Shown in pieces: positions 6,347-51,044 of a stretch of 64,000 nt of DNA. The translations under genes and the position numbers were made by a program. Origin of the DNA: Paenibacillus sp. FSL H8-0537 (GTDB taxonomy: Bacteria > Bacillota > Bacilli > Paenibacillales > Paenibacillaceae); assembly GCF_038051995.1 (NCBI RefSeq), contig NZ_CP150290.1, positions 5,761,001 through 5,825,000 on the forward strand. The letters are read 5' to 3'. Within the stretch, counting starts at the first letter, position 1. Each line of letters opens with the position of its first letter. The notes beneath the pieces were generated by a model, which did not search any database, was not told the origin of the DNA, and was given only the letters and a program-made list of their open reading frames with translations.

Positions 6347-7003
6347 TCAAGGGACAAATTGCTCAAGTCGGATAATGCCAAGCCGTTTTGCCTCTGCGAT
6401 CGCTTCCGATCGGGACCTAACGTTAAGCTTTTCAAAAATCCGGGTTAGATGGTACTCTACAGTACGCTGACTCATATGCAGCTTAATGGCAATATCTTTG
6501 TTGCTATTGCCGTACGCGACCTGCTGCAAAATATCCTGATCGCGTTCTTTAATCGATACTTCTTCAATTACTTTCTCAGCACGCGTAATTTTGACTTCGT
6601 TGCGCCGCAGCTGCTTGAGCAGTGAAATCGGAATAACCGCTTCCCCTCGCATAGCGCATCGAATGGCGTTATGCAGCTGTTCTCGCGAGACCGTCTTAGA
6701 GATAAAGCCGGAAACGCCGCATTCTATCAATAAATTATAGTGCGTACTAATTTCATAACCAGTATATATGAGCACTTTGCGATCCGGATCTTGCTGAATC
6801 AAACGTTTTGCAAGCTCAAGACCGCTTATGCCTGGCATGTTCAAGTCACATAAAATAATGTCAAATCCTTCGTTGCTAATCGCATCCAGCGCTTCCATGG
6901 CCGATAATACAACCGTCACCTTCATTTCGGGATCTTGTTCAATCATCGTTTTGGTGCCTTCTCCGACAGATGGATGATCATCAACTAATAAGATACGAAT
7001 CAC
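6347..7003 (-). CDS. ComA-like LuxR/GerE-type response regulator
   Basis: A 218-aa NarL/FixJ-family regulator. The receiver domain (residues 1-120) has the acidic pair in LLVDDH, phospho-acceptor Asp53 in CDLNMPG, the switch Thr in LIYTG and the Lys in ISKT. The C-terminal DNA-binding helix-turn-helix (about 155-205) reads NKDIAIKLHMSQRTVEYHL. It overlaps the kinase gene by 23 bases, so the two are a matched pair. By analogy with ComA of B. subtilis it should activate quorum-responsive promoters. Inverted repeats with the ComA half-site TTGCGG lie upstream of two genes of the same operon (9676-9695 and 11760-11785), suggesting positive autoregulation. DegU- or LiaR-like alternatives exist, but the comQ and comX neighbours favour a ComA role. 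Confidence 0.88.
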   Translation of the reverse strand: MIRILLVDDHPSVGEGTKTMIEQDPEMKVTVVLSAMEALDAISNEGFDIILCDLNMPGISGLELAKRLIQQDPDRKVLIYTGYEISTHYNLLIECGVSGFISKTVSREQLHNAIRCAMRGEAVIPISLLKQLRRNEVKITRAEKVIEEVSIKERDQDILQQVAYGNSNKDIAIKLHMSQRTVEYHLTRIFEKLNVRSRSEAIAEAKRLGIIRLEQFVP

Positions 7004-9377
7004 GCAGCAAACCCCTTTCCGATCGGCCAGTCGTCATATTTTGCGGCAATATAATAATGACCTCAAGACCTTTTCCACGTTTCGACCGGAATGTTATTTC
7101 ACCTTCAAGGCTAGCGACTCTTTCTTTAATACCGGATAAACCCATATGCTCGAAAGAAGCCTCCATGTAATCGACATCCATGCCGACCCCATCGTCCTTA
7201 TAGTGAAAATAAACTATGTTTGTTCTCTGCTCCAACTCTAACGTGACCAGATTGGCACGCGCATGCTTATCAGCATTACGAAGCAACTCTTGGACAATGC
7301 GGTAAATCGCTGTAATCTGCTCTTCGTTAAGCAGGTTGTCGAAAGGCTTGGCCCGAAAATCGACTGCAAAATTGTTTCTCATTTGCGTATGCTCAATGAT
7401 CGATTCCAATGCTTCAACAATGCCCATTTCCTTAAGCAGCGGCGGTCTTAACTCATTGCAGGTTTCCCGAATTTGATGGATGACATCAAGAAGTCCTTCC
7501 TTGATTTCGTCAAGCTCGACTTCAAGCTTTTCCGTTATCGGATGGTCCAGCATGAGTGCTTCCAGCCTTCGGTACCACAATAATTGGTCTTGAAGCGCAG
7601 AATCATGAAGATCGGCTGCAAGCTTCCGCCGTTCATTTTCCGAGAGGCAAAACAACAATCTTAAAATCCAAGGTGTTGTAGCCTGCTCCTTCTTAACCTC
7701 AGATTCTAAATCCTCGATTAAGCTTTCAATCAGATATAAGTTTTCAAACACGATACTTGCATAATTCGCAAGTGTCTTGAGCCAACGAAGCTCATCTGAA
7801 TTGAAACGGGTATGGTTGGTTTTGGAGCCAATCCATACGATGTACTGCTTTGACTTCTGACAGCCAATAATTAGTCCCAGACCATGAGGCAGCTCAACGA
7901 CTTCCCCGACTTGAAGCGATTCAGTCACTTGCAGCAGAAAAATAGCGGTACTCTGCTCATCATCCTGCTCTCCTGCCGGAATAACCAATGCTTCAATCTG
8001 GTCTACAATGAGAAAATCAATTCGGCTAGCCGGAATCAGTGCCCCAATTTCTTCTTTCAGCACCATCTCCAGATCATCCCGCTTCATGACTCGTGCAATT
8101 TTGCGTGAGAAACGATCAAGGCTGTCTTGGTAGCTGTACATCGCTTTAAAAAGCTTGGGACGAAATTTATGATCAATCTGCTCCTTGGAATAAAGAAACA
8201 GGGTCATAACAGCGTAATTAATGATAAAGATTTGAAGCCATCTGACCCAAGAGAATACAGTGTCACTACTTACAATCGCAGCAATCATCATCGTAACGAC
8301 AAGCGCCGGCAATAAGGACAGCAATGTATAATACTTAAATCGGGTCAATATAAAATCAACATCAAACAATTGGTTGGATGTTAATAAATAAAAGTAAACG
8401 ATCGGCAGCACGAACAAAAAAGGTGCTGTGAACGCCGCTGGCAAAATTTGAATGTTTCCTCCCAACAACGGCAATAAATTCATTGTCGTAAATGGAGTGA
8501 ACGCAGCCAAATGCGAAGTCAGCGTTATTTTGAACAAAGAGTTGAACCTGCTATTCCGATAATAAAAGAATTTTCTAAACAACTGGTAGACGCAAATGAA
8601 ATTACCAACTATCAGTGTGGCATGGTATACCATTCTAGCGTTTAAAAATAATTGTTTCGGAATAAAATTCGTCCAAATGTAGACGAGGCAAAACAATGAA
8701 ACGACGCTGAATGCTGCTGATAAACACCATATTAGCTTAGGGCTAATAAAGATAATACCATATCTTCGCAGGTACATATTCATAAATAACAAGAATAAAA
8801 TAGCTACAAATGGAATTACCGCATACATAACGGTAACACCTACCAAATCATTTCGATAGGCTGCGGCTGAAGAAAAATAACTCAACCCAATCGCTAAGAA
8901 AAATAATATAAGCATAATAGCAGCACTATCATTTTTCCTTTTCTTATACAAAAAGGAGGATAAACCGAGAAACAATAGCAGTGAAGCCCAAGGAAGATAA
9001 AGTTGAATGAGCAGTTCCAAACCTGTATGATCACCATTCCATCCTCGATTGAAAGTCACTTTTCTTGATTCGCCAGTTTTTCCACCAACGACAATACTTT
9101 CGACTCTCTCTACGGAAGAAAACTTGATGATATTCACATTCTGATCTGCCGGTTTTCCATTCACTTCCTCAATGACGTCCCCAACATGAATGCCCTTCAG
9201 AACAGCTTGTCCTGCTGGCTGAAGGGACTCAACCAAGTACTCACCTTGTGAATTCTTCACAGTTACTACACCAATAAACGGATCACTAATTATAACCATT
9301 GTAAGGTAACCAAGTAAAGCGAAAAGCCCACTCAGGAAGAGAAAAAGCAATAGTGTCCTTGAGCGCAACAACTTCAT
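6981..9377 (-). CDS. ComP-like membrane histidine kinase with PDZ domain
   Basis: A 798-aa sensor kinase of the HPK7 (HisKA_3) class. Order: one N-terminal membrane helix (residues 8-30), a periplasm-side PDZ-like domain (about 35-105, with GIHVGDVIEEVNGKPAD), then about eight to nine further membrane helices to residue 400, a GAF-like cytoplasmic region, the H-box ADLHDSALQ with His591, and a HATPase domain with LLRNADKHA (N box) and DDGVGMD. The H-box closely follows ComP/DegS/LiaS kinases. It lies between the comX-like gene and its response regulator, the same order as comP in Bacillus. The expected ligand is the processed ComX-like peptide; this is inference from context. Confidence 0.88.
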   Translation of the reverse strand: MKLLRSRTLLLFLFLSGLFALLGYLTMVIISDPFIGVVTVKNSQGEYLVESLQPAGQAVLKGIHVGDVIEEVNGKPADQNVNIIKFSSVERVESIVVGGKTGESRKVTFNRGWNGDHTGLELLIQLYLPWASLLLFLGLSSFLYKKRKNDSAAIMLILFFLAIGLSYFSSAAAYRNDLVGVTVMYAVIPFVAILFLLFMNMYLRRYGIIFISPKLIWCLSAAFSVVSLFCLVYIWTNFIPKQLFLNARMVYHATLIVGNFICVYQLFRKFFYYRNSRFNSLFKITLTSHLAAFTPFTTMNLLPLLGGNIQILPAAFTAPFLFVLPIVYFYLLTSNQLFDVDFILTRFKYYTLLSLLPALVVTMMIAAIVSSDTVFSWVRWLQIFIINYAVMTLFLYSKEQIDHKFRPKLFKAMYSYQDSLDRFSRKIARVMKRDDLEMVLKEEIGALIPASRIDFLIVDQIEALVIPAGEQDDEQSTAIFLLQVTESLQVGEVVELPHGLGLIIGCQKSKQYIVWIGSKTNHTRFNSDELRWLKTLANYASIVFENLYLIESLIEDLESEVKKEQATTPWILRLLFCLSENERRKLAADLHDSALQDQLLWYRRLEALMLDHPITEKLEVELDEIKEGLLDVIHQIRETCNELRPPLLKEMGIVEALESIIEHTQMRNNFAVDFRAKPFDNLLNEEQITAIYRIVQELLRNADKHARANLVTLELEQRTNIVYFHYKDDGVGMDVDYMEASFEHMGLSGIKERVASLEGEITFRSKRGKGLEVIIILPQNMTTGRSERGLLRDSYLIS

Positions 9378-9410
9378 CTTTCTCCCCCTAAATTCTTGCA
9401 GAACATTACC

Positions 9411-9584
9411 TTAAGTCCAATAGACCATTTGGTAATTATCCTTCTTATCTGCTTGAATGCTCAGGGTTTCAAAAATCGCTTTTTTCTCCGCTGGAGTCAC
9501 TCCAGCCATTTGCAAGTTCCCGCTCATTGCTAAATCCATCATATGCGAGTCTTTGGCTAAAGAACGAATAAATTCTTTCAACAC
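9411..9584 (-). CDS. comX: ComX-like prenylated pheromone precursor (57 aa)
   Basis: A short gene between the ComQ-like and ComP-like genes. The predicted 57-aa peptide starts at GTG (9584) or the adjacent TTG (9581), behind the strong site AAGGAGGAG. It begins LKEFIRSLAKDS, contains the ComX-family-like middle GVTPAEKKAIFETL and ends YQMVYWT, so the only Trp is the penultimate residue (56). In ComX pheromones a C-terminal-region Trp is isoprenylated by ComQ and the last few residues are released as the signal. The family tie rests on position, size, the EKKAI pattern and the terminal Trp; sequence conservation in ComX is always low. It has its own promoter and a ComA-like box. Confidence 0.85.
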   Translation of the reverse strand: MLKEFIRSLAKDSHMMDLAMSGNLQMAGVTPAEKKAIFETLSIQADKKDNYQMVYWT

Positions 9585-9626
9585 TGGAACTCCTCCTTGG
9601 AATGTGTAAGGATCTTTCTGTAGTTA

Positions 9627-9654
9627 ACTATAACAGGAAATGATAGCCAAGCAA
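9627..9654 (-). promoter_or_regulatory. Sigma-A promoter of comX
   Basis: On the minus strand, TTGCTT (-35, 9649-9654) and TATAGT (-10, 9627-9632) are separated by 16 bases. The -10 lies about 45 bases upstream of the comX start. The non-consensus -35 fits an activator-dependent promoter. Confidence 0.6.
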
Positions 9655-9675
9655 ACGCAAATCTAGTTCGTATTT

Positions 9676-9695
9676 ACCGCAACTACCATTGCGGT
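9676..9695. promoter_or_regulatory. ComA-box-like inverted repeat upstream of comX
   Basis: Perfect 7-bp inverted repeat ACCGCAA - 6 bases - TTGCGGT, centred about 34 bp upstream of the comX -35 element. TTGCGG is the half-site of the B. subtilis ComA box, but the half-sites here face the opposite way from the published arrangement (TTGCGG-N4-CCGCAA). It matches a second site at 11760-11778. Confidence 0.6.
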
Positions 9696-9707
9696 GTTAT
9701 TCGCAGG

Positions 9708-10631
9708 CTATTCTTTAGCCAATATGCTTAACAGCATTTCCTTATGCCCGGCCACCTCAGGAACCGAATCCATGAGCTCCATAAAACGGTTATAATGTGT
9801 GCGCATCACAACTGAACCGTACAGCATGGCACCGGATTTTTCATAAGCTTCCTCAAGCAGGCCGCGCTTATCCGCTACATCAGCCTCATTCAAGCGACCT
9901 TCAAAATAATCCCTAATCCAATTATGCTGGTCTACAGCATCCTCAAGCATGTACAGAGTAAGAAGCGTTTTCTTCCGCTGCAAAAAGTCATTTTTCTCAT
10001 CCCAGCGAAGCAGATCGCGAATGTCATTTTTAATTTGAGCCGCCATTCCCACCTCAACCGCATATTCCGCTACAATCGGATGCCAGCCTCGGCCGGTCAG
10101 CATAACGCCCGTCATACAGGCATGAACGATTAAAGCAGCCGACTTTTGCTTAATCGACTGAAAATAAGACTGCTCGTCGGACACAGCGTTCATTAAATCC
10201 ATCATTTGCCCGTTCGCCGCTTGCAGCAATTGAAGATTCATCATTTTCATTGTTGTTTGGACATGGGAGCTATCGAATTCAGAATCCATCATCGCTTGCT
10301 GCGAAAGGGTCAAAAAAGCAGCTGCAAGATGCAGTGCTATAGGCAGAGGAGCTTCAGACCAGGCCTGCTTTGGCGCATCCTGATCCTGCAAATCATCGAA
10401 AATATCGGTCGCCAGAATAAGAAATTCAACCGCTGCCGCCGCACGATACACTGCCGCCCCTTCACCGCCGAACATCCGGTAGTGGAGCACCGTCAAGCGT
10501 CCAAAAGGAAGCTGCTCATTCAGCCTGTCCATTAAAAATAAGTAGGCGTACTGAATCAATGAGTCCACTGTAAAATGTCGTCTGACCATCTCTCGCATTT
10601 CAAATTCGATTTTAGGTACACAGTCCTCCAA
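9708..10631 (-). CDS. comQ: ComQ-like isoprenyl transferase
   Basis: A 307-aa protein with the trans-isoprenyl diphosphate synthase fold. The first Asp-rich motif is DDLQD at residues 79-83 (within DIFDDLQDQDAP). The second is reduced to NDIRD at 202-206, followed by WDEKNDFLQRKKTL, the segment that in polyprenyl synthases and ComQ precedes a KKT-L turn. The alternative, an ordinary polyprenyl synthase, is less likely because the gene lies directly upstream of a ComX-like precursor and a ComP/ComA pair. The expected reaction is transfer of a farnesyl or geranyl group onto the Trp of the precursor. A short gap separates it from the upstream 67-aa gene. Confidence 0.85.
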   Translation of the reverse strand: MEDCVPKIEFEMREMVRRHFTVDSLIQYAYLFLMDRLNEQLPFGRLTVLHYRMFGGEGAAVYRAAAAVEFLILATDIFDDLQDQDAPKQAWSEAPLPIALHLAAAFLTLSQQAMMDSEFDSSHVQTTMKMMNLQLLQAANGQMMDLMNAVSDEQSYFQSIKQKSAALIVHACMTGVMLTGRGWHPIVAEYAVEVGMAAQIKNDIRDLLRWDEKNDFLQRKKTLLTLYMLEDAVDQHNWIRDYFEGRLNEADVADKRGLLEEAYEKSGAMLYGSVVMRTHYNRFMELMDSVPEVAGHKEMLLSILAKE

Positions 10632-40712: not shown

Positions 40713-42497
40713 CTACGCTTTTCTTCTCGCCTGCTGCCATACGAACATAATGATAATGACCACCAATACCGCAAGCTGCGTAAGCGCCGTCTCCAGCGTT
40801 GGATAAATACCAAGGAAGCCAATCGTAGGCCATTCGCTTACCGCATGCGTCGGCAGCCATGCAGCGACCTGCAGCGAGTGAATGCTTTCTCCCATAAAGC
40901 GGAACACTAAATAATAAATGAGCACCGATGCCACAATGAAAAAGGGCCGAATCGGCAGCTTCGTGCTGAAGCGAATAATAACGAAAGCTATTGCTACGAG
41001 CAGCAGGAACGTTACGCCAATACCTAAGATCATTTGGTATGGATCAATGGAAGGCGCCATGCCGACATAAAATATCGTCGTCTCCGCCCCTTCCCGCATA
41101 ATGGCAAGCGCCGACACAGCGAACAGAGACCACAGACTGCCGCGGGCAATAGCGCTGCCCATCTTGTTGTCAATATAGCTGTTCCAGCTTCGCAAATTTG
41201 CTTTGCTGTGCAGCCAGTTGCCGACGGTTATCATCAAGATGACGGAGACAAGACCAGCGATGCCCTCAATCGCTTCACGCGCGCTGCCAGCAGCCGCTTG
41301 AGCAATCGCATAAGTGAGCAGCACAGCCATAACAGCGCTCAGCAGCAGGCCGACCCAGACGCCAGACCATACCCAGATGCGCTTCGACTCGTTGCCCGAT
41401 TTTTTTAAATAAGCCAGTAAAGCTGCAAGCACGAGAATTGCCTCAAGCCCCTCGCGGAGCAAAATCATTCCAGCATCCCATGCAGTATAGCGCGTTTCCT
41501 CCACCATTGGAGCAAGTATCTCTCTGATTTCGGCAATTACGGCTTGGGCTATATCCGGAACCGGTGGATTGGAAAGCAAATAGCCCGATACCGCCGTCAT
41601 TTGAATTTCGATTTTCGTATAAGCATCAGCAGAACGAATCTGCACCTGCCCCTCGACCGACGGCCATTTTGAAATAAAGGCTTGCATTTGGCCATCGGCC
41701 TCACTTAAATTGCCCGCGGCTATGTCTTTAGCTGCTTTATCAACAATTGCAATCAGGTCAGCAATGCCCAGTTTTTCCGCTGGTACAGCAGCCGCATCGA
41801 TTTTGCCTGCCCTATAATCATTAAGCAGCTGAATCATCGCATTCGTTTCCGTCTCGGATTGCTCCGCACGCGGCGGCTCGGCCTGCAGCGCAATCCGGAT
41901 CATGCTCATTGCCGTCTCCAGCTTGCCATAGACGGTGAAATTGTCCGAGCGGATCGCAGGTTCAATCGTCAGCCAATTATCGTTAATCGTCTTATAATCA
42001 GCGCTCGCCTTCCCCCATTGCTCTCCTTGAATTTCGACCAGCAGCTTTGTCGCCATAGGCAGAAGCAGCTTCGCCGCTTCCTTGCCGCTCAGCTTAGATT
42101 GATCGTCCTTCTGGACGCTTTTCACATATTTATTAATCGCCTTTGCCAGCTCGGATAAGGAAGCCTTTGCCTCCTCCGGCTTGCTGTCTCCCTGGTCCAA
42201 GAGCACGATCGCATGAGCCAGCGCGGAGCCGACATCGGCGGATAAATCTGATTTTTTCACGTTTAGCTGCTTCCAGCGCTCATTCGCTTCTTTAATATGA
42301 CCTGATGCCTGTTCCCAGTCGCTCTGGCTTGCCGCTGCAAGCGCTCCGCCAACGAGCGGAAGCAGCTTATCCAAATCGCTGGACGTTTCTGCAAAAACGG
42401 GCCTCACGCCAATCGAGCCTGCAACCATGGCTGCTAAAATAACGATAATGCCGAGCCATTTCCACCCTATGCTGTAACGGCTGCTACCTGAAAACAT
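40713..42497 (-). CDS. efeU: EfeU-type FTR1 iron permease
   Basis: A 594-aa membrane protein of the ferrous-iron permease (FTR1) family. After a signal-anchor (residues 12-32) comes a long extracellular, all-helical region (about 35-330), then about seven membrane helices. REGLE (LLREGLEAILVLAALL) and REGAE (MREGAETTIFYV) are the two RExxE iron-binding motifs of FTR1. The N-terminal extracellular region is much larger than in E. coli EfeU. The start was set at the ATG behind GGAGAAG; a longer frame overlaps efeB. It is the last gene of efeO-efeB-efeU. Confidence 0.93.
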   Translation of the reverse strand: MFSGSSRYSIGWKWLGIIVILAAMVAGSIGVRPVFAETSSDLDKLLPLVGGALAAASQSDWEQASGHIKEANERWKQLNVKKSDLSADVGSALAHAIVLLDQGDSKPEEAKASLSELAKAINKYVKSVQKDDQSKLSGKEAAKLLLPMATKLLVEIQGEQWGKASADYKTINDNWLTIEPAIRSDNFTVYGKLETAMSMIRIALQAEPPRAEQSETETNAMIQLLNDYRAGKIDAAAVPAEKLGIADLIAIVDKAAKDIAAGNLSEADGQMQAFISKWPSVEGQVQIRSADAYTKIEIQMTAVSGYLLSNPPVPDIAQAVIAEIREILAPMVEETRYTAWDAGMILLREGLEAILVLAALLAYLKKSGNESKRIWVWSGVWVGLLLSAVMAVLLTYAIAQAAAGSAREAIEGIAGLVSVILMITVGNWLHSKANLRSWNSYIDNKMGSAIARGSLWSLFAVSALAIMREGAETTIFYVGMAPSIDPYQMILGIGVTFLLLVAIAFVIIRFSTKLPIRPFFIVASVLIYYLVFRFMGESIHSLQVAAWLPTHAVSEWPTIGFLGIYPTLETALTQLAVLVVIIIMFVWQQARRKA

Positions 42498-42519
42498 ATG
42501 CCGCTTCTCCTCTCTCCTG

Positions 42520-43860
42520 CTACAATAACGTCTCTCCAATATAGCCGCCCTCGCTGACGCCAGGGAAACAAGCAAACACGGCGCTGCCCGTATGCACGAT
42601 ATATTCATTCAACTTATCCATTAGGCTCAGCTTGGTCTGCATCGGAATAAACTGCTTGCTCGTATCGCGGTTATAGCAAATAAACAATAGTCCCGCGTCA
42701 AGCTGTCCGGTGCGTTTGTCCAGACCGCTGGAGTAGGAGTACGAGCGGCGCAATATTTTCAAAGACCCGTCCCCTCTAGCAAGTGCCAAATGCGAGTTGG
42801 CTGGAATGACCGGCTTGCCGTTCTCATCCTTTTTATTCACATCGACTGTGTCAAACTCCTTCAAGCTGCCAATTGGAGCACCGCTCTCCCGATGGCGGCC
42901 GAAGGTTGCCTCTTGGTCAGACAGCGTCGAGCGATCCCACACCTCTACCCGCATGCGAATTCTTCTCACGACCATATAGCTGCCGCCCGCCATCCATGGT
43001 ACACCGTCATCGGCGGAAGCCCAGACGACCTGCTTCATCTGTGCTTCATCGCTCGTATCCGGGTTCGCGGTCCCATCCTTGAAGCCCATCAAGTTGCGCG
43101 GTGTCGCGCCCTGCTTATCAGCGCCGGAGGTGCGCTGAAAGCCTTCCGTCGTCCAGCGCAGCACCGCTTTGCCCCGTGCGATCCGCGTCAAATTGCGAAT
43201 GGCATGGAAAGCGACCTGCATATCGTTTGCGCATACCTGCACGCCGATATCGCCACCGCACCATTCCGGCTGCAGCTCATCGCCGCCAAATGCTGGAAGC
43301 TCCTCAAGGGAAGAGGGCTTCTTGCTTGACAGACCGAAGCGCCCATCAAAAAAGCTCGGCCCTACGCCGAACGTAATCGTTGTTTTGGAAGGCGATAAGC
43401 CTGCGGCTTCGCCCGTGTCGGATGGCGGCAGGTTCAAGTTATTATTGTCCGTGCCAATCATCGTTCCTTGCGTCATTGCAGCCGAAGCGGCTGTCCAAAC
43501 TTGAAACAAGGTACGCACCTCATCGATTGAAGCTGCTGTCAGATCAAAAGCGGCAAATAAAATAAAATCCTGTGACGGCGTCGCAATACCTGCCTGATGA
43601 GCACCGTAAAAAGGCAGCACATCTCCATTTGCTCCAGCCCCTGTCGCCGCCGTTGTCGCTGCCGTTGTCGGGGCGGACAGCGTTTTGCTTGCCGCCTGCA
43701 TAATGCCGCCTACGCCAGTCGCGCCGATCAGCAAACCAGCCCCACCAACGCCCATGAGCCGCAGTAAATCTCTGCGGCTCATCGGTTTTTCCAGCACACT
43801 GTCGCCAGCCTGCTTCTGATTATGCTTTTGTTTATCGTCGTTGTTAGTAGTAGAACTCAT
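42520..43860 (-). CDS. efeB: EfeB: Tat-exported dye-decolorising (DyP) peroxidase
   Basis: A 446-aa haem peroxidase of the DyP family that works with EfeU and EfeO in iron uptake. A twin-arginine signal occupies the N-terminus: SRRDLLRLMGVGGAGLLIG (residues 28-46), preceded by a charged region. The DyP signature GFKDGTANP (GxxDG; about residue 262), the haem-side MVVRRIRMRVEVW and FICYNRD are present. In B. subtilis the homologue EfeB (YwbN) is exported by TatAyCy; the same pair may operate here with tatA-tatC at the left end. It lies between efeO and efeU. Confidence 0.95.
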   Translation of the reverse strand: MSSTTNNDDKQKHNQKQAGDSVLEKPMSRRDLLRLMGVGGAGLLIGATGVGGIMQAASKTLSAPTTAATTAATGAGANGDVLPFYGAHQAGIATPSQDFILFAAFDLTAASIDEVRTLFQVWTAASAAMTQGTMIGTDNNNLNLPPSDTGEAAGLSPSKTTITFGVGPSFFDGRFGLSSKKPSSLEELPAFGGDELQPEWCGGDIGVQVCANDMQVAFHAIRNLTRIARGKAVLRWTTEGFQRTSGADKQGATPRNLMGFKDGTANPDTSDEAQMKQVVWASADDGVPWMAGGSYMVVRRIRMRVEVWDRSTLSDQEATFGRHRESGAPIGSLKEFDTVDVNKKDENGKPVIPANSHLALARGDGSLKILRRSYSYSSGLDKRTGQLDAGLLFICYNRDTSKQFIPMQTKLSLMDKLNEYIVHTGSAVFACFPGVSEGGYIGETLL

Positions 43861-43864
43861 GACA

Positions 43865-44776
43865 TTAAGCCCCCAAAATTTTGCCCATTTGTGAAAGCGG
43901 TTCTGCCAAAGCGTCTAGCAGCCGGCTCAGCTTCTTCGTATCTTCTTCTTTCAAATCAAGGTAAGATTTATAGCCGTCGCCATCTTTATAAACAGCAAGC
44001 GCATCGTCCAGGTTTGTGAAGCTTGTGCCAATCAATGTTTCCAGTTCGGCATCATGCTTGTTCAATTGCGGCTTAAGCAGCTCATAAATTTTCTCTGCAC
44101 CTTCTACGTTAGCGACAAAATCATACAAGTCAGTATGCGAATAACGTTCTTCCTCGCCGGTCACTTTAGAGGAGGATACTTCGTTCAGCAGCTCAACCGC
44201 ACCCGTAACGAGCAGGCTAGGCTCAATTTCGACCGTCTCCATAAGTGCGCGAAGCAGCTTGATGTCCTCAAGCAGCGTATCGGCATAACCTTCAGCGCCT
44301 TTTGTAGTATTTTCTTCCCATAAAATTTTCTCGATTCGGTGGAAGCCTCTCCACTCCTTCTCGTCGACATCATTTTCACGGGCATCAATATGCGGGTCAA
44401 AATCGCCCAGCGCTTCAGCAATCGGCTCGATTCTTTCATAGTACATTCTCGATGGCGCATACAACTGCTTCGCCGTCTCAATGTCGCCCGCTTTAACGGC
44501 ATTGACGAATTTTTCGGTTTCAATAACGAGCGAATCCGCCTCTTTAATCGTGAAGGCGCGATATTCGTCAAGAACAGGCTGCCATTCCTCTTCCGTGGCA
44601 GGCGCTATTGTAGCAGCTGGCGACTCCTCCGACGCTGCTGGTGATTCTTCAGCTGTATTTGTTCCTGTCGCTGCCGCAGTGTCTGTTTTTGTATTAGTAG
44701 CAGTATCTGACCCGCAAGCAGAAAGAAATAATAGGCTGGCACAAGATAATGAAATTGCGATTAACTTCCAGTTCAT
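43865..44776 (-). CDS. efeO: EfeO: imelysin-type iron-binding lipoprotein
   Basis: A 303-aa lipoprotein with the M75 imelysin-like domain. The lipobox is LFLSAC near residue 20, followed by a Thr/Ala/Asn-rich linker. FHRIEKILWEE (the HxxE metal motif of EfeO, GFHRIEKIL) and ARENDVDEKEWRGFHRIE are present. This form has no cupredoxin domain, as in Bacillus EfeO. It captures iron at the surface for EfeU. The start was set at the ATG behind AGGGGAAAATCGA. It is the first gene of the operon, under a Fur box at 44840-44854. Confidence 0.93.
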   Translation of the reverse strand: MNWKLIAISLSCASLLFLSACGSDTATNTKTDTAAATGTNTAEESPAASEESPAATIAPATEEEWQPVLDEYRAFTIKEADSLVIETEKFVNAVKAGDIETAKQLYAPSRMYYERIEPIAEALGDFDPHIDARENDVDEKEWRGFHRIEKILWEENTTKGAEGYADTLLEDIKLLRALMETVEIEPSLLVTGAVELLNEVSSSKVTGEEERYSHTDLYDFVANVEGAEKIYELLKPQLNKHDAELETLIGTSFTNLDDALAVYKDGDGYKSYLDLKEEDTKKLSRLLDALAEPLSQMGKILGA

Positions 44777-44839
44777 TCGATTTTCCCCTTTAAGAATCCA
44801 CGTCATGTGAATTTATTCTATTGCGAAGTATATTCCTAT

Positions 44840-47225: not shown

Positions 47226-47609
47226 TTATTTCATTTGGTTTTCATAAAAAAGCAGCCGGTTGCCGAACGGATCCGTCACGACGCATTCAAGTGTATGCCA
47301 AGGCGTCCGTTCCAGTCCAGGCTTGGCGTAACGGTAATCTTTTTCAAGCAGAAGGGTATGATAGGCTTCAATTTGGCTCGTTTCAATACGAATAGCTGCG
47401 CCGGGGCAGCTATCGCCATGATGCTCAGATAAATGCAGCACACAGCAGCCATTAGATACTTGCATATACAATGGAAAATCCGCCTCATAACGATGCTCCC
47501 AATCCAGCCGGAAGCCGAGAAAGTCCATATAGAACGCTTTAGCATGTGCTTCATCAAAAATTCGCAAAATCGGTACGACTGGTTTCATTAATAGCCCGTT
47601 TTGTCCCAT
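47226..47609 (-). CDS. VOC (glyoxalase/bleomycin resistance) superfamily protein
   Basis: A 127-aa single-module protein with paired beta-alpha-beta units. Seen: PVILRIFDEAHAKAFYMDFLGFRLDW at the start, and TPWHTLECVVTDPFGNRLLFYE at the end, a typical VOC metal/substrate strand. Possible roles are drug binding or isomerase activity; the substrate is not known. Confidence 0.82.
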   Translation of the reverse strand: MGQNGLLMKPVVPILRIFDEAHAKAFYMDFLGFRLDWEHRYEADFPLYMQVSNGCCVLHLSEHHGDSCPGAAIRIETSQIEAYHTLLLEKDYRYAKPGLERTPWHTLECVVTDPFGNRLLFYENQMK

Positions 47610-47793
47610 TCGCGACTCCTTTCGGCATTCGCCGCACTCTTTTTATCGTTTTCCCACAAAAAAGTTCCAAGTTTCTACATTTTACTTAACTTCCCCTCTA
47701 TCTTCAACCGCCAAAACAAAGTATAATACTGGAAAACAAATTATTTTATGTGCCTTTAAGCCTATTATATAAAGATAAGAGGACTCTTACCCC

Positions 47794-48711
47794 ATGCCAT
47801 TTATCACCCATTTTGAAGCCAGTCTTCAGGCTGTTTTCTCCAAAGCACAGCAAATAACGGCAAAATTCCCTGCACCGCTAAATCAAACGGGACAAGCGTA
47901 TATTACGCAGATCAATCCTCTGCATCGCAGCGGCAGCCAGAACTATCTCGGCTATTTGCTGCCCTATTGGATAACGGAAATGGCCGATGTGACCGAGGAG
48001 CAATGCGAGCAGCTTGCGCTTGCCAATTTATTCGGCATGCTGCATTTTTTTATTGTGGATGAAGTGATGGATACGGGGAGTGCGGAAAGCAGACAGAAAC
48101 TGGCTTTGAGCCATTTATTTTATACGCAGATGTACGGTGTTCTGCACCGTATGCACACTTCTGACTCTAAGATTTGGGAGTATTACGACCGCTACATGGC
48201 CGATTGGTCGCTTGGCGTGGCCCAAGAGTCCGAGAGCGATTATTTCAATACCGATCCGCTTCGCACCGCTTTAAAGTCGTCACTCGTGAAAATAGCCAGC
48301 ACCGGAGCCTTGCTCCTCTCGGACCAGCACGCCTTCATACCGGCAGTCGAACAGGCTGTTGATTATGTGCTCGTTGCGCTTCAAATGGCCGATGATTGGA
48401 CGGACTGGGAAGCTGATTTGGCCGATGGAAGCTACAATGGATTGCTAGCGTTATTCAGGAATAGATGGCCAGAGCAGTCGCCGATTACAGTCAGTAAAGT
48501 GAGAAAAGCGATATATGTGCAGGGGCTACTAACGGACTATGTGGAGCTCGCTTACCAATATGAACAGGCGCATCTCAAATTAGGCCTTAAGGCTGGTTAT
48601 TTACTGGAATTTCATGGATCCATAACCGCTTCTCTCGCAAATGATGCTCATAATATAGAGCTCAGTCGAAAAAAACAGATGGAGGGCGGACTCTTTCAAA
48701 CACTATCATGA
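47794..48711 (+). CDS. Class I isoprenoid-synthase-fold enzyme beside a RiPP precursor
   Basis: A 305-aa, all-helical protein. The first acidic motif is DEVMD (residues 89-93 in FFIVDEVMDTG); the second is DDWTDWEAD (200-208) followed by a GSYNGLL segment. This pattern is that of prenyl synthase- or terpene synthase-like class I enzymes, which bind Mg-diphosphate. Only about 120 bases separate it from the NHLP precursor gene. It is not similar enough to ComQ in my reading to call it an orthologue; a family of its own is likely. Prenylation or cyclisation of the small peptide is an inference from context. Confidence 0.75.
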   Translation: MPFITHFEASLQAVFSKAQQITAKFPAPLNQTGQAYITQINPLHRSGSQNYLGYLLPYWITEMADVTEEQCEQLALANLFGMLHFFIVDEVMDTGSAESRQKLALSHLFYTQMYGVLHRMHTSDSKIWEYYDRYMADWSLGVAQESESDYFNTDPLRTALKSSLVKIASTGALLLSDQHAFIPAVEQAVDYVLVALQMADDWTDWEADLADGSYNGLLALFRNRWPEQSPITVSKVRKAIYVQGLLTDYVELAYQYEQAHLKLGLKAGYLLEFHGSITASLANDAHNIELSRKKQMEGGLFQTLS

Positions 48712-48769
48712 CAAAATCACCTAAAAAATCTGCTATTAATTAGTATTTTATGAAAATATATAGTAGTTT

Positions 48770-48799
48770 TTGTCGAAATTCCATGTTACAATATATAAA
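48770..48799 (+). promoter_or_regulatory. Candidate promoter of the NHLP precursor gene
   Basis: TTGTCG (48770-48775), then either TATATA (48792-48797, 16-base gap) or TATAAA (48794-48799, 18-base gap). A separate promoter would allow peptide expression above that of the enzyme. Confidence 0.45.
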
Positions 48800-48835
48800 T
48801 GGAACTTATGCATAATACTAGAAAGGTGGAACAGT

Positions 48836-49075
48836 ATGAGCAGCGAAAACAATTTACGACAGGAAATTATTCAGAAAGCATGGGAAGATGAGGCTTTCAA
48901 GAAGCAGCTCCTGGCTGATCCACGTGCCGCTATTAAAGAGGCGTTTCAAGTTGAAATTCCAGAAGACGTTGAAGTAAAAGCAGTAGAAGAACAGACTAAC
49001 AGCTATTATCTCGTTATCCCTGTCAGTCCTGCTGATAGCTCCCAAGCAGCTGTCGCATCTCCACCTTGGAAGTAA
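48836..49075 (+). CDS. NHLP leader peptide family RiPP precursor
   Basis: A 79-aa protein whose first two thirds match the nitrile hydratase leader peptide (NHLP) pattern: QKAWEDEAFKKQLLADPRAA, IPEDVEVKAVEEQTNSYYLVIP. In NHLP precursors the leader is removed after modification of a C-terminal core. The core here is short and neutral (SPADSSQAAVASPPWK) and ends in Trp78-Lys79; it lacks the Cys residues usual in NHLP cores, arguing against lanthipeptide or azole chemistry. GAAAGGTGGAACAGT precedes the ATG. The gene is just downstream of the isoprenoid-synthase-like gene, and a terminator follows. Trp prenylation is possible but unproven. Confidence 0.85.
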   Translation: MSSENNLRQEIIQKAWEDEAFKKQLLADPRAAIKEAFQVEIPEDVEVKAVEEQTNSYYLVIPVSPADSSQAAVASPPWK

Positions 49076-49097
49076 GCCTCTACGTACAGTCATAAAT

Positions 49098-49130
49098 CAA
49101 GCGCCCTGCCAGGACGGCAAGGCGCTTTTA
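49098..49130. terminator. Bidirectional terminator between NHLP precursor and kinase genes
   Basis: AAGCGCC and GGCGCTT with inner TGCC/GGCA, followed by TTATTG. It separates convergent genes. Confidence 0.8.
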
Positions 49131-51044
49131 TTGAATTTCTGCTAAAGGCAAACTTACGAACGCTTCCGTGCCAACTCCTTTTATACTGTTAAAATAGATC
49201 CGACCGTTCATCACTTCAATAATGCGGAAGGTGACCATCAGCCCAAGCCCTGTACCTTTGGACTTATTGGAGAAATACGGCTCGCCCAATCTTTCCAGCT
49301 CGCTCTCCTCCATCCCTACTCCATTATCGCTAATGCGAATAATGACGGTGGAATCCTCCTGATAGGCAATAATGTCGATGCTTCCCTTTGTCGGCAGCGC
49401 TTCGATGCTATTTTTCACAATATTAATAATCGCTTGTTTGAACTTAGAGGAATTTCCCCGCACATACAGCTCAAAATTCGACTCCACCCGCAGTTCTCCA
49501 CCTTGAATCGTAGCAAGCGGAGATAATATCGCTTCGATTTGTCCCAATTCCTCCGCTATATTCAATATCGTCGTCATTTCAACCTGAGGCTTGGCAAAGG
49601 TCAAAAAGTCCGTAATGATGCTGGAGGCGCGATCCAACTCGTCGATAGCCAGCAGCATATAATTTTTATCCTTCTGATCGGCAGAACGATGGCCAATTAA
49701 CTGGAGAAAGCCGCGTGTCACCTGCAGCGGATTGCGCACTTCATGTGCAACCGATGCGGCGAGCTGGCTAATGATTTCCATTTTCTCAGAACGCTGCAGC
49801 TCATTATTGAATACTTCCAGCTTTCGGGAATACAGCAGCATTTGCTCATAGTTATTAATAATCCGCCGGATCAACACCACAATTAAGGAGAAAATGAAAA
49901 ACAGCGTTCCCCATTTCCAATAAAACATTTCATAATCTTTGTGTGTAAAATAAATGACCAGCTCGGATACCACTGTTAGGGCAAACAGCGCAAAACCTGT
50001 AGAAATAATAATACTTTCCCGGTTTCGCTTCATACAATAAAGCGCAAGCACCGAAATTAAGATGATGTTGCCGATCATGACGGACGATGCGAAGATGAGT
50101 GGCACGATGCTCTCATAATAATGCAGAATCCCTCCGCCTAGCAGGATGCTCAGCAGCAGCCACACGCTGCTTCCGATGGAGATGACTAATTGGACGCGCA
50201 AACCATATTTTAATATTCGGCTTGTGCCTTTCCCGATAATTTGCTCAAAAAATAAAAAGATCCAGGTCATAATAAACGTCGAGGATATATCAAACAAATA
50301 ATAATAAACTCGGCTGGATTTGCCGAAAAACGCATACAAATACGGAGAAATCGTCAAAGTCATAACCCCAAGCGACAGCATCAGGAGACATAACGAATTC
50401 CAGCCTGGCCAATATATTTTATTCACAAACAGCATACATATAAGTAATGAAATCGATACAAATACAAGCGTGCCGCCCAAAATAATATCCAAAATATTTT
50501 TTTGCAAATATTTAGAATTCATGCTTTGGAAATCGCCAAGCTTCACGCTACCCTCGATTCCTAGCGAGCTTGCATCTGCGTTGCCTTTTAAATATATGTA
50601 TATCGGCTTATTATAATAATGAGGAGACAGCTTCAGCAAAATATTGTTCGTCTCATAGCCGTAGTTGCGCTCATCCTCATATATAAGATAACCATCGTTA
50701 AATATACGAATTTGCTGCGCAAAGTTCACGTCCAGCATAATACCTGGATTTTCCCACTTCAAATCTGGAACCTCAATCTTGATCCAGGCGGAGTTAAAGC
50801 CGTCCGGCTTGGTGGTTACCCGATCATTGCCTGTTGACCAGATCCATCTATCATTATGCTCCTGATCCATCACATCTGCGAGCACCGGCTCCTGACTTGC
50901 CTCATCTAGCCATTGAATATACCACTGATCAATATGTGTTATTGGTGGAGGAGGAGGACTCGCAAAAGCTCGAGGAACCATTAAACAGATGGATAAAACG
51001 AAGAATAATACGATGAACCTTGCGTATCTCAATACTTCTCTCAT
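49128..51044 (-). CDS. 7TM-type sensor histidine kinase (7TMR-DISM-like)
   Basis: A 638-aa kinase. A signal peptide/N-terminal helix (residues 10-28) leads to an extracellular beta-rich domain (about 35-180) of the 7TMR-DISMED2 type, then seven membrane helices (about 185-400), a coiled coil, HisKA with AHEVRNPLQVTRGFL (His near 435) and HATPase with NIVKNSIEA, DNGVGM and GTGLGLM. No response regulator gene is adjacent. The kinase core resembles KinB-like sporulation kinases, so it may feed the phosphorelay; a link to the convergent NHLP gene is only positional. The terminator at 49098-49130 lies at its 3' end. Confidence 0.9.
   Translation of the reverse strand: MREVLRYARFIVLFFVLSICLMVPRAFASPPPPPITHIDQWYIQWLDEASQEPVLADVMDQEHNDRWIWSTGNDRVTTKPDGFNSAWIKIEVPDLKWENPGIMLDVNFAQQIRIFNDGYLIYEDERNYGYETNNILLKLSPHYYNKPIYIYLKGNADASSLGIEGSVKLGDFQSMNSKYLQKNILDIILGGTLVFVSISLLICMLFVNKIYWPGWNSLCLLMLSLGVMTLTISPYLYAFFGKSSRVYYYLFDISSTFIMTWIFLFFEQIIGKGTSRILKYGLRVQLVISIGSSVWLLLSILLGGGILHYYESIVPLIFASSVMIGNIILISVLALYCMKRNRESIIISTGFALFALTVVSELVIYFTHKDYEMFYWKWGTLFFIFSLIVVLIRRIINNYEQMLLYSRKLEVFNNELQRSEKMEIISQLAASVAHEVRNPLQVTRGFLQLIGHRSADQKDKNYMLLAIDELDRASSIITDFLTFAKPQVEMTTILNIAEELGQIEAILSPLATIQGGELRVESNFELYVRGNSSKFKQAIINIVKNSIEALPTKGSIDIIAYQEDSTVIIRISDNGVGMEESELERLGEPYFSNKSKGTGLGLMVTFRIIEVMNGRIYFNSIKGVGTEAFVSLPLAEIQ

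Follow-up and report, generated by a model that had tools for sequence, protein, structure and literature searches.

A PalQ/PalX/PalP-type unit in Paenibacillus sp. FSL H8-0537: a predicted tryptophan prenyltransferase, an NHLP precursor with a penultimate Trp and a convergent histidine kinase

In a window of 64,000 nucleotides (the whole stretch of DNA analysed here) from Paenibacillus sp. FSL H8-0537, a gene for an enzyme with the isoprenoid-synthase fold is followed by a small gene for a peptide with an NHLP-type leader, which raises the question of what the enzyme does to the peptide and what purpose the product would serve. The initial annotation proposed a new prenylated-RiPP system, in which an isoprenoid would be attached to the Trp near the end of the core. 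Prenylation of this near-terminal Trp is still the best reading, with an in vitro precedent in PalQ and PalX according to the available excerpts of the relevant paper (PMC10853753). The claim of novelty has to be given up, since the same excerpts show that a system of this kind was published in 2023 as PalQ/PalX/PalP. The two-gene description was also incomplete, having overlooked a convergent histidine kinase gene that points to signalling. We consider it fairly probable that the locus is a PalQ/PalX/PalP-type unit in which the enzyme prenylates Trp78 and a trimmed lipopeptide is exported as a signal for the adjacent convergent kinase; prenylation by this enzyme is likely, and the signalling role is what we infer from its company.

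Miyata, Ito, Fujinami (Adv Sci 2023, PMC10853753) described, in the excerpts at hand, a Paenibacillus alvei cluster comprising the kinase PalP, the NHLP precursor PalX, and the prenyltransferase PalQ, entered in UniProt as K4ZRG6; the cluster is described there as conserved in various members of Paenibacillus. PalQ prenylated PalX in vitro with C5, C10, and C15 groups, and NMR of the C5 product placed the group at C3 of the indole in the C-terminal Trp of PalX, with closure to a pyrroloindole. These excerpts mention the kinase once and report a strict C-terminal Trp rule: activity on the core peptide was lost when Ala was added after Trp, a result repeated in a 2026 review (PMC13290415), in the available part of which Gly around an internal Trp is stated to have allowed low PalQ activity. 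Among the matches listed for the open-licence literature, the PalQ paper and one review dealt with a PalQ-type enzyme, absence from those matches being no proof of absence. Compared by published description, as far as it was available, the unit in the window and the P. alvei cluster agree in their three types of gene and in having a conserved Trp close to the precursor end, whereas PalX ends in Trp and the window precursor has Lys after it. The published P. alvei core DNVRRFFW, back-translated, was found in 0/394 genomes of the family, and no P. alvei entry was named among 63 or 73 homologues. By homology the window unit belongs to the PalQ family, but not to the functional class of C-terminal-Trp prenyltransferases, because its predicted acceptor Trp78 is not the last residue (W78-K79). 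The kind of system is thus already described, and the copy in the window (Table 1) is a variant of it with a penultimate Trp.

Table 1. Features of the Pal unit and of the separate comQXPA-like locus, in window positions.
Feature	Position	Strand	Remarks
PalQ-like enzyme, predicted Trp prenyltransferase	47794..48711	+	305 aa, class I isoprenoid-synthase fold
First Asp-rich motif D89-E-V-M-D93	48058..48072	+	D89 and D93 in 183/183 aligned rows
Q197-M-A-D200-D201-W-T-D204-W-E-A-D208: Trp-binding Gln and second Asp-rich motif	48382..48417	+	
PalX-like precursor, NHLP leader	48836..49075	+	79 aa, TIGR03793 73 bits, residues 5-67
Trp78 codon, predicted prenylation site	49067..49069	+	invariant in alignment of 9 sequences
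Lys79 codon, one-residue tail after Trp	49070..49072	+	three nearest relatives carry identical tail
Hairpin between precursor and kinase genes	49099..49127	.	T-run on + strand; fold -19.2 kcal/mol (49076-49140)
PalP-like histidine kinase	49128..51044	-	638 aa; HisKA and HATPase_c (Pfam)
comQXPA-like locus, canonical-looking	6347-10631	-	~38 kb from PalQ-like gene
ComQ-like protein	9708-10631	-	PF00348
ComX, ends YWT	9411-9584	-	57 aa; PF05952 30.9 bits, cut-off 25
ComP-like kinase	6981-9377	-	HisKA_3; name from gene order and domains
ComA-like LuxR-type regulator	6347-7003	-	name from gene order and domains

Both genes lie where the initial annotation had placed them, on the + strand, and the enzyme carries the DEVMD and DDWTDWEAD motifs already pointed out there. 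Q197, D200, D201, and D204 are unchanged in all 183 aligned enzyme rows, the window included, and D89, D93, Q197, D200, and D204 stand at the very residue numbers given for PalQ in the excerpted paper (PMC10853753). The predicted structure is all-helical, with the prenyl diphosphate synthase fold. Searches of Pfam and NCBIfam with the 305-residue protein returned zero families at E 0.1. The enzyme likewise lacks a PF00348 match at this threshold, so it does not fall into the housekeeping polyprenyl synthase family, unlike three other genes of the same genome that do match PF00348, one of them being the ComQ-like gene; the earlier expectation that the enzyme would group apart from housekeeping synthases is thereby borne out. 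The window enzyme combines the class I prenyl-synthase fold with membership in none of the named families, which is one mark of the PalQ/PalX/PalP family. Solved structures searched by enzyme sequence gave chance-level matches (best E 0.15), and a plasmid search gave two distant matches. Cyanobactin prenyltransferases also prenylate RiPP precursors, some on Trp, and differ in having an alpha+beta barrel fold, according to the available part of PMC10853753, as against the all-helical model of the window enzyme.

The precursor starts with ATG, preceded by AGGTGG, and follows the enzyme gene on the same strand after 124 bases, close to the 120 or so originally estimated. Its leader is of the NHLP type, as had been recognised, with a score well above the curated TIGR03793 cut-off of 50.9, and the peptide lacks Cys over its whole length of 79 residues and ends in ...VASPPWK, in keeping with the Cys-free core ending PPWK first reported. 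Promoter-like sites in 47600-49200 numbered 2 against 2.7 in shuffles, with none before the precursor gene, and the notion of an own promoter for this gene was dropped on finding the sites at shuffle level. Two more NHLP-like precursors occur in the same genome some 290 kb off, outside the window (G000:C1:5520995-5521713); the search for PalQ-like enzymes matched a single one in this genome.

The enzyme is present in 326/394 genomes of the family, mostly with one match per genome. For its pairing with the precursor, 241 loci were reduced to 196 distinct enzymes by counting identical enzymes once, 80 coming from named genomes, to which the window was added, and the remainder being chosen for score or diversity. 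An NHLP precursor was found near 188 of these 196 enzymes, always downstream and on the same strand (188/188), and within 1 kb of the matched end of the enzyme for 186/188. The co-occurrence foreseen by the initial annotation therefore extends across genomes. For the eighth enzyme without a nearby precursor (L149), the sequence breaks off at a contig end; the genomes of the other seven were searched and all seven hold a precursor elsewhere. In G299 and G302 an extra kinase gene intervenes and the precursor follows some 2-3 kb downstream of the enzyme; in G327 and G394 it shares the enzyme's contig at a distance of 13-34 kb, and in G026, G008, and G034 it is on a different contig. It is accordingly very improbable that the enzyme makes small-molecule terpenes or polyprenyl chains and has the peptide gene beside it by chance. 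The prenyl diphosphate synthase fold would suit such a role, and some relatives are named "Terpene synthase" or "Polyprenyl synthetase" in databases, but the peptide gene is kept beside nearly all enzymes of the sample, no Pfam or NCBIfam family is matched while PF00348 is readily found in three other genes, and PalQ prenylates Trp in vitro in the published excerpts.

The kinase gene is convergent to the precursor gene and ends 52 bases away from it. A terminator-like site was also found on the - strand at the intervening hairpin, which is likely a terminator shared by the two genes. Hydropathy suggests an N-terminal hydrophobic segment, a domain of about 155 residues, and then a cluster of membrane segments at 187-396; as is common among kinases, the catalytic part is highly conserved, whereas conservation stays low (0.30-0.50) over residues 1-180. 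The best model for the catalytic half is the sporulation kinase KinD at 156.6 bits, far under its cut-off of 775, and, as a guess, the kinase might feed the sporulation phosphorelay; among the response-regulator genes of the window, none beside the unit is conserved across loci.

This arrangement recurs throughout the family. Of 99 distinct loci at least 8 kb long, 96 hold a kinase homologue; it is absent from L006 and L060, whose precursors have moved away, and from L010, which is truncated at a contig end. In loci of that size the kinase is convergent and less than 600 bases from 96/102 complete precursors, with a median gap of 47. The six precursors without an adjacent kinase comprise one with the kinase farther off (L043), three with it upstream of the enzyme (L071, L210, L222), one with it beside a second precursor (L068), and one in which it falls under the length filter (L241). 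All eight precursors detached from the enzyme, in seven genomes, have a convergent kinase beside them, twice in one genome (L257). Precursor and kinase hence look like the tightest pair of the unit, as would be expected for a ligand and its receptor, because the kinase adjoins the precursor even where enzyme and precursor have parted. Co-variation of the two proteins was set aside as main evidence because it was weak and the raw value peaked in the kinase part: correlation with core divergence was 0.60 for the kinase part, 0.55 for the membrane part, and 0.53 for the outer domain, and partial correlations given the kinase part fell to 0.16 for the outer domain and 0.22 for the membrane part. 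Among 247 close pairs, the correlation was strongest for the membrane part (0.63), followed by the kinase part (0.55) and the outer part (0.43). Extra precursors and extra kinases across 78 loci were only weakly associated (3 loci with both, 2 with an extra precursor alone, and 12 with an extra kinase alone; p 0.046).

The ten neighbours scanned (39.3-59.1 kb) comprise an RNA-methyltransferase-like protein, three of iron-uptake type, and GGDEF/EAL, glyoxalase, CheR, hybrid kinase, sigma factor, and SpoIIE-like proteins. None of the ten is a lantibiotic cyclase, LanM, YcaO, or other RiPP tailoring enzyme, in agreement with the earlier remark that the usual NHLP tailoring enzymes are missing nearby, and no exporter or protease gene was identified for the unit. 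On the - strand at window positions 40713-44806, genes for an FTR1 permease, a Dyp-type peroxidase, and an imelysin lie in a row, which we take to be an EfeUOB-like iron uptake operon. When 18 window genes were compared with 78 distinct loci at least 14 kb long, the enzyme recurred in 78 and the kinase in 76, with the next best gene in 25; the 16 other genes tested span 37.4-57.3 kb, and the 78 large loci reach about 8 kb on each side.

NHLP precursors are usually natural-product precursors, and the pair could thus make a prenylated RiPP with another job, such as an antimicrobial or membrane-active lipopeptide, the kinase then sensing envelope stress or serving immunity instead of perceiving a pheromone. 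Membrane-active peptides prenylated by PalQ did gain antimicrobial potency, according to the excerpts of the review (PMC13290415). Against such a job stands the comparison of large loci, in which only the enzyme and the kinase are widely shared, a statement that covers the window's genes alone. The cores, moreover, vary while the Trp stays. Bacteriocin clusters are patchy, quite unlike the spread of this enzyme over 326 of 394 genomes, mostly in one copy each. We therefore regard this alternative as unlikely, and continue with the reading of a prenylated peptide signal.

The Trp itself is a nearly constant element of the precursor end. It lies within the last seven residues of 196/197 complete precursors, as against a chance expectation of about 7% (assuming a Trp frequency of 1.1%), and the sole precursor without it (L142) has a frame running past the usual end; the prediction that a near-terminal Trp would be conserved has thus come true. 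Its exact place is less rigid. Of 183 paired precursors, 111 end in Trp and 72, including that of the window, carry one to six residues after it, in a sample chosen for diversity, so that this ratio is not a frequency estimate. The tree on which the tails were followed holds 184 of the 196 enzymes, 12 having been left out for want of a closed precursor or for a fragmentary enzyme; 183 rows were scored, with L142 unscored and L192, though tailed, counted as untailed on account of an extra terminal Trp. Gain and loss of the tail require 12 changes at fewest on this quick tree, in which 52/181 forks are open, and 8 of them are forced by well supported branches. The shuffled trait averages 56.6 changes, which means that tails are clustered on the tree. 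The branch of the window, four rows with the window included, ends uniformly in PPWK. In the g5 clade (L150 and L153-L172), the 21 precursors have an unusually constant core with Cys and end in CGPWRS, CGPWRT, CGPWRD, or CGPWRSF, and in L198 a tandem run of at least four precursors following one enzyme ends in KYTWV, KFVWI, KYNWL, and KYVWF, with a different residue after Trp each time.

Prenylation of a peptide ending in ...PPWK is not to be taken as given, because PalQ lost activity with Ala after Trp in the published excerpts (PMC10853753). The enzyme might need a free C-terminal Trp, a carboxypeptidase first removing Lys79, or the tailed branch might modify its peptide otherwise, which we hold possible but doubtful. 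Basic residues are easily trimmed, and among 80 tailed precursors Arg and Gln are the commonest residues after Trp (R 22, Q 11, K 4), most of the Arg coming from one clade. The demand of PalQ for a terminal Trp in vitro, as excerpted from both publications (PMC10853753, PMC13290415), would agree with trimming. The tails also begin with Gly, Ser, Asp, Glu, Asn, Pro, Ile, and others, however, which one carboxypeptidase would hardly remove in every case. The catalytic residues and Q197 are unchanged between tailed and untailed rows (183/183), and Bacillus ComQ accepts an internal Trp according to the available text of PMC10853753. At one locus (L020, the same contig position as G342, a genome with a single enzyme match), one enzyme stands beside two precursors ending in VPMW and GAAWQ; either the one enzyme serves both, or something trims one of them. 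No enzyme residue was found to predict the tail, as columns 160, 186, 113, 81, and 194 were the most informative yet did not separate the classes, and the position of PalQ's K39 was rejected as a switch (K in 53/111 untailed and 31/72 tailed rows, Q in the window enzyme). Tolerance of the tail by the enzymes of tailed pairs is, in our judgement, somewhat more likely than its removal by a peptidase.

A near parallel is the ComQXPA system of Bacillus, which likewise combines an enzyme of the isoprenoid-synthase superfamily, a small Trp peptide, and an adjacent membrane histidine kinase. The parts are nonetheless different: the Pal enzyme, unlike ComQ, lacks PF00348 and has no meaningful BLASTP similarity to the ComQ-like protein of the window; the Pal precursor is an NHLP peptide without PF05952 (ComX); and the Pal kinase is of HisKA type, convergent, and without a ComA-like regulator beside it. 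The ComQXPA layout, with Q, X, P, and A on one strand and a LuxR-type regulator, is not that of the Pal unit, where the gene beyond the kinase encodes CheR and is found in 2/78 large loci. A prenyl-peptide signalling system of ComX-like kind that was built separately is the best reading.

The same window also holds a canonical-looking comQXPA-like locus of its own. A peptide of 53-57 aa ending in Trp and one further residue occurs at the corresponding place in 30/30 ComQ loci (L268-L297, the own genome included). ComQ-like genes were found in 133/394 genomes of the family by a single query at E 1e-10, which distant ComQ could escape: in 102/326 Pal-positive and 31/68 Pal-negative genomes. Outside the window's genus they are commoner in Pal-negative (30/64) than in Pal-positive genomes (55/279), a difference driven by few genera and counted regardless of kinship, whereas in the window's genus all 47 Pal-positive genomes carry both systems. 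Complementarity of Pal and Com was rejected for these two reasons, the neglect of kinship in the counts and the reversal of the trend inside that genus. Among the best 30 of the 133 ComQ matches, 29 were in genomes of the window's genus, in 25 of which a single contig carries both the ComQ-like and the PalQ-like gene, with some 35-61 kb between their starts; three of the other four have them on different contigs, and one has no listed PalQ place. A 2014 census names Paenibacillus curdlanolyticus as having an unusual com locus, in the part available (PMC4008528).

The steps envisaged for the Pal unit can be put in order. The enzyme would recognise the NHLP leader of the 79-residue precursor and attach a prenyl chain to the penultimate Trp78, with the Lys79 tail either tolerated or cut off beforehand. 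The core would then be released and probably exported as a trimmed lipopeptide, which the histidine kinase may sense as its ligand.

What is added here to the published system is the scale of its distribution, the stable cassette of precursor and kinase, and a terminal-Trp rule that has been loosened repeatedly. There is perhaps an even chance that the Pal unit represents a near family-wide pheromone system of the Paenibacillaceae apart from ComQXPA, in which one PalQ-like enzyme acts on the Trp of a single PalX or of several, every PalX and its own convergent PalP receptor form a movable cassette, the Trp-last rule has been relaxed many times, and the prenyltransferases of the tailed lineages accept a wider range of substrates than PalQ. 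If the tail reading is true, tailed relatives of PalQ would be possible tools for prenylating non-terminal Trp. If the signalling is true, a large bacterial family would possess a pheromone system that could be tested with synthetic prenyl-peptides.
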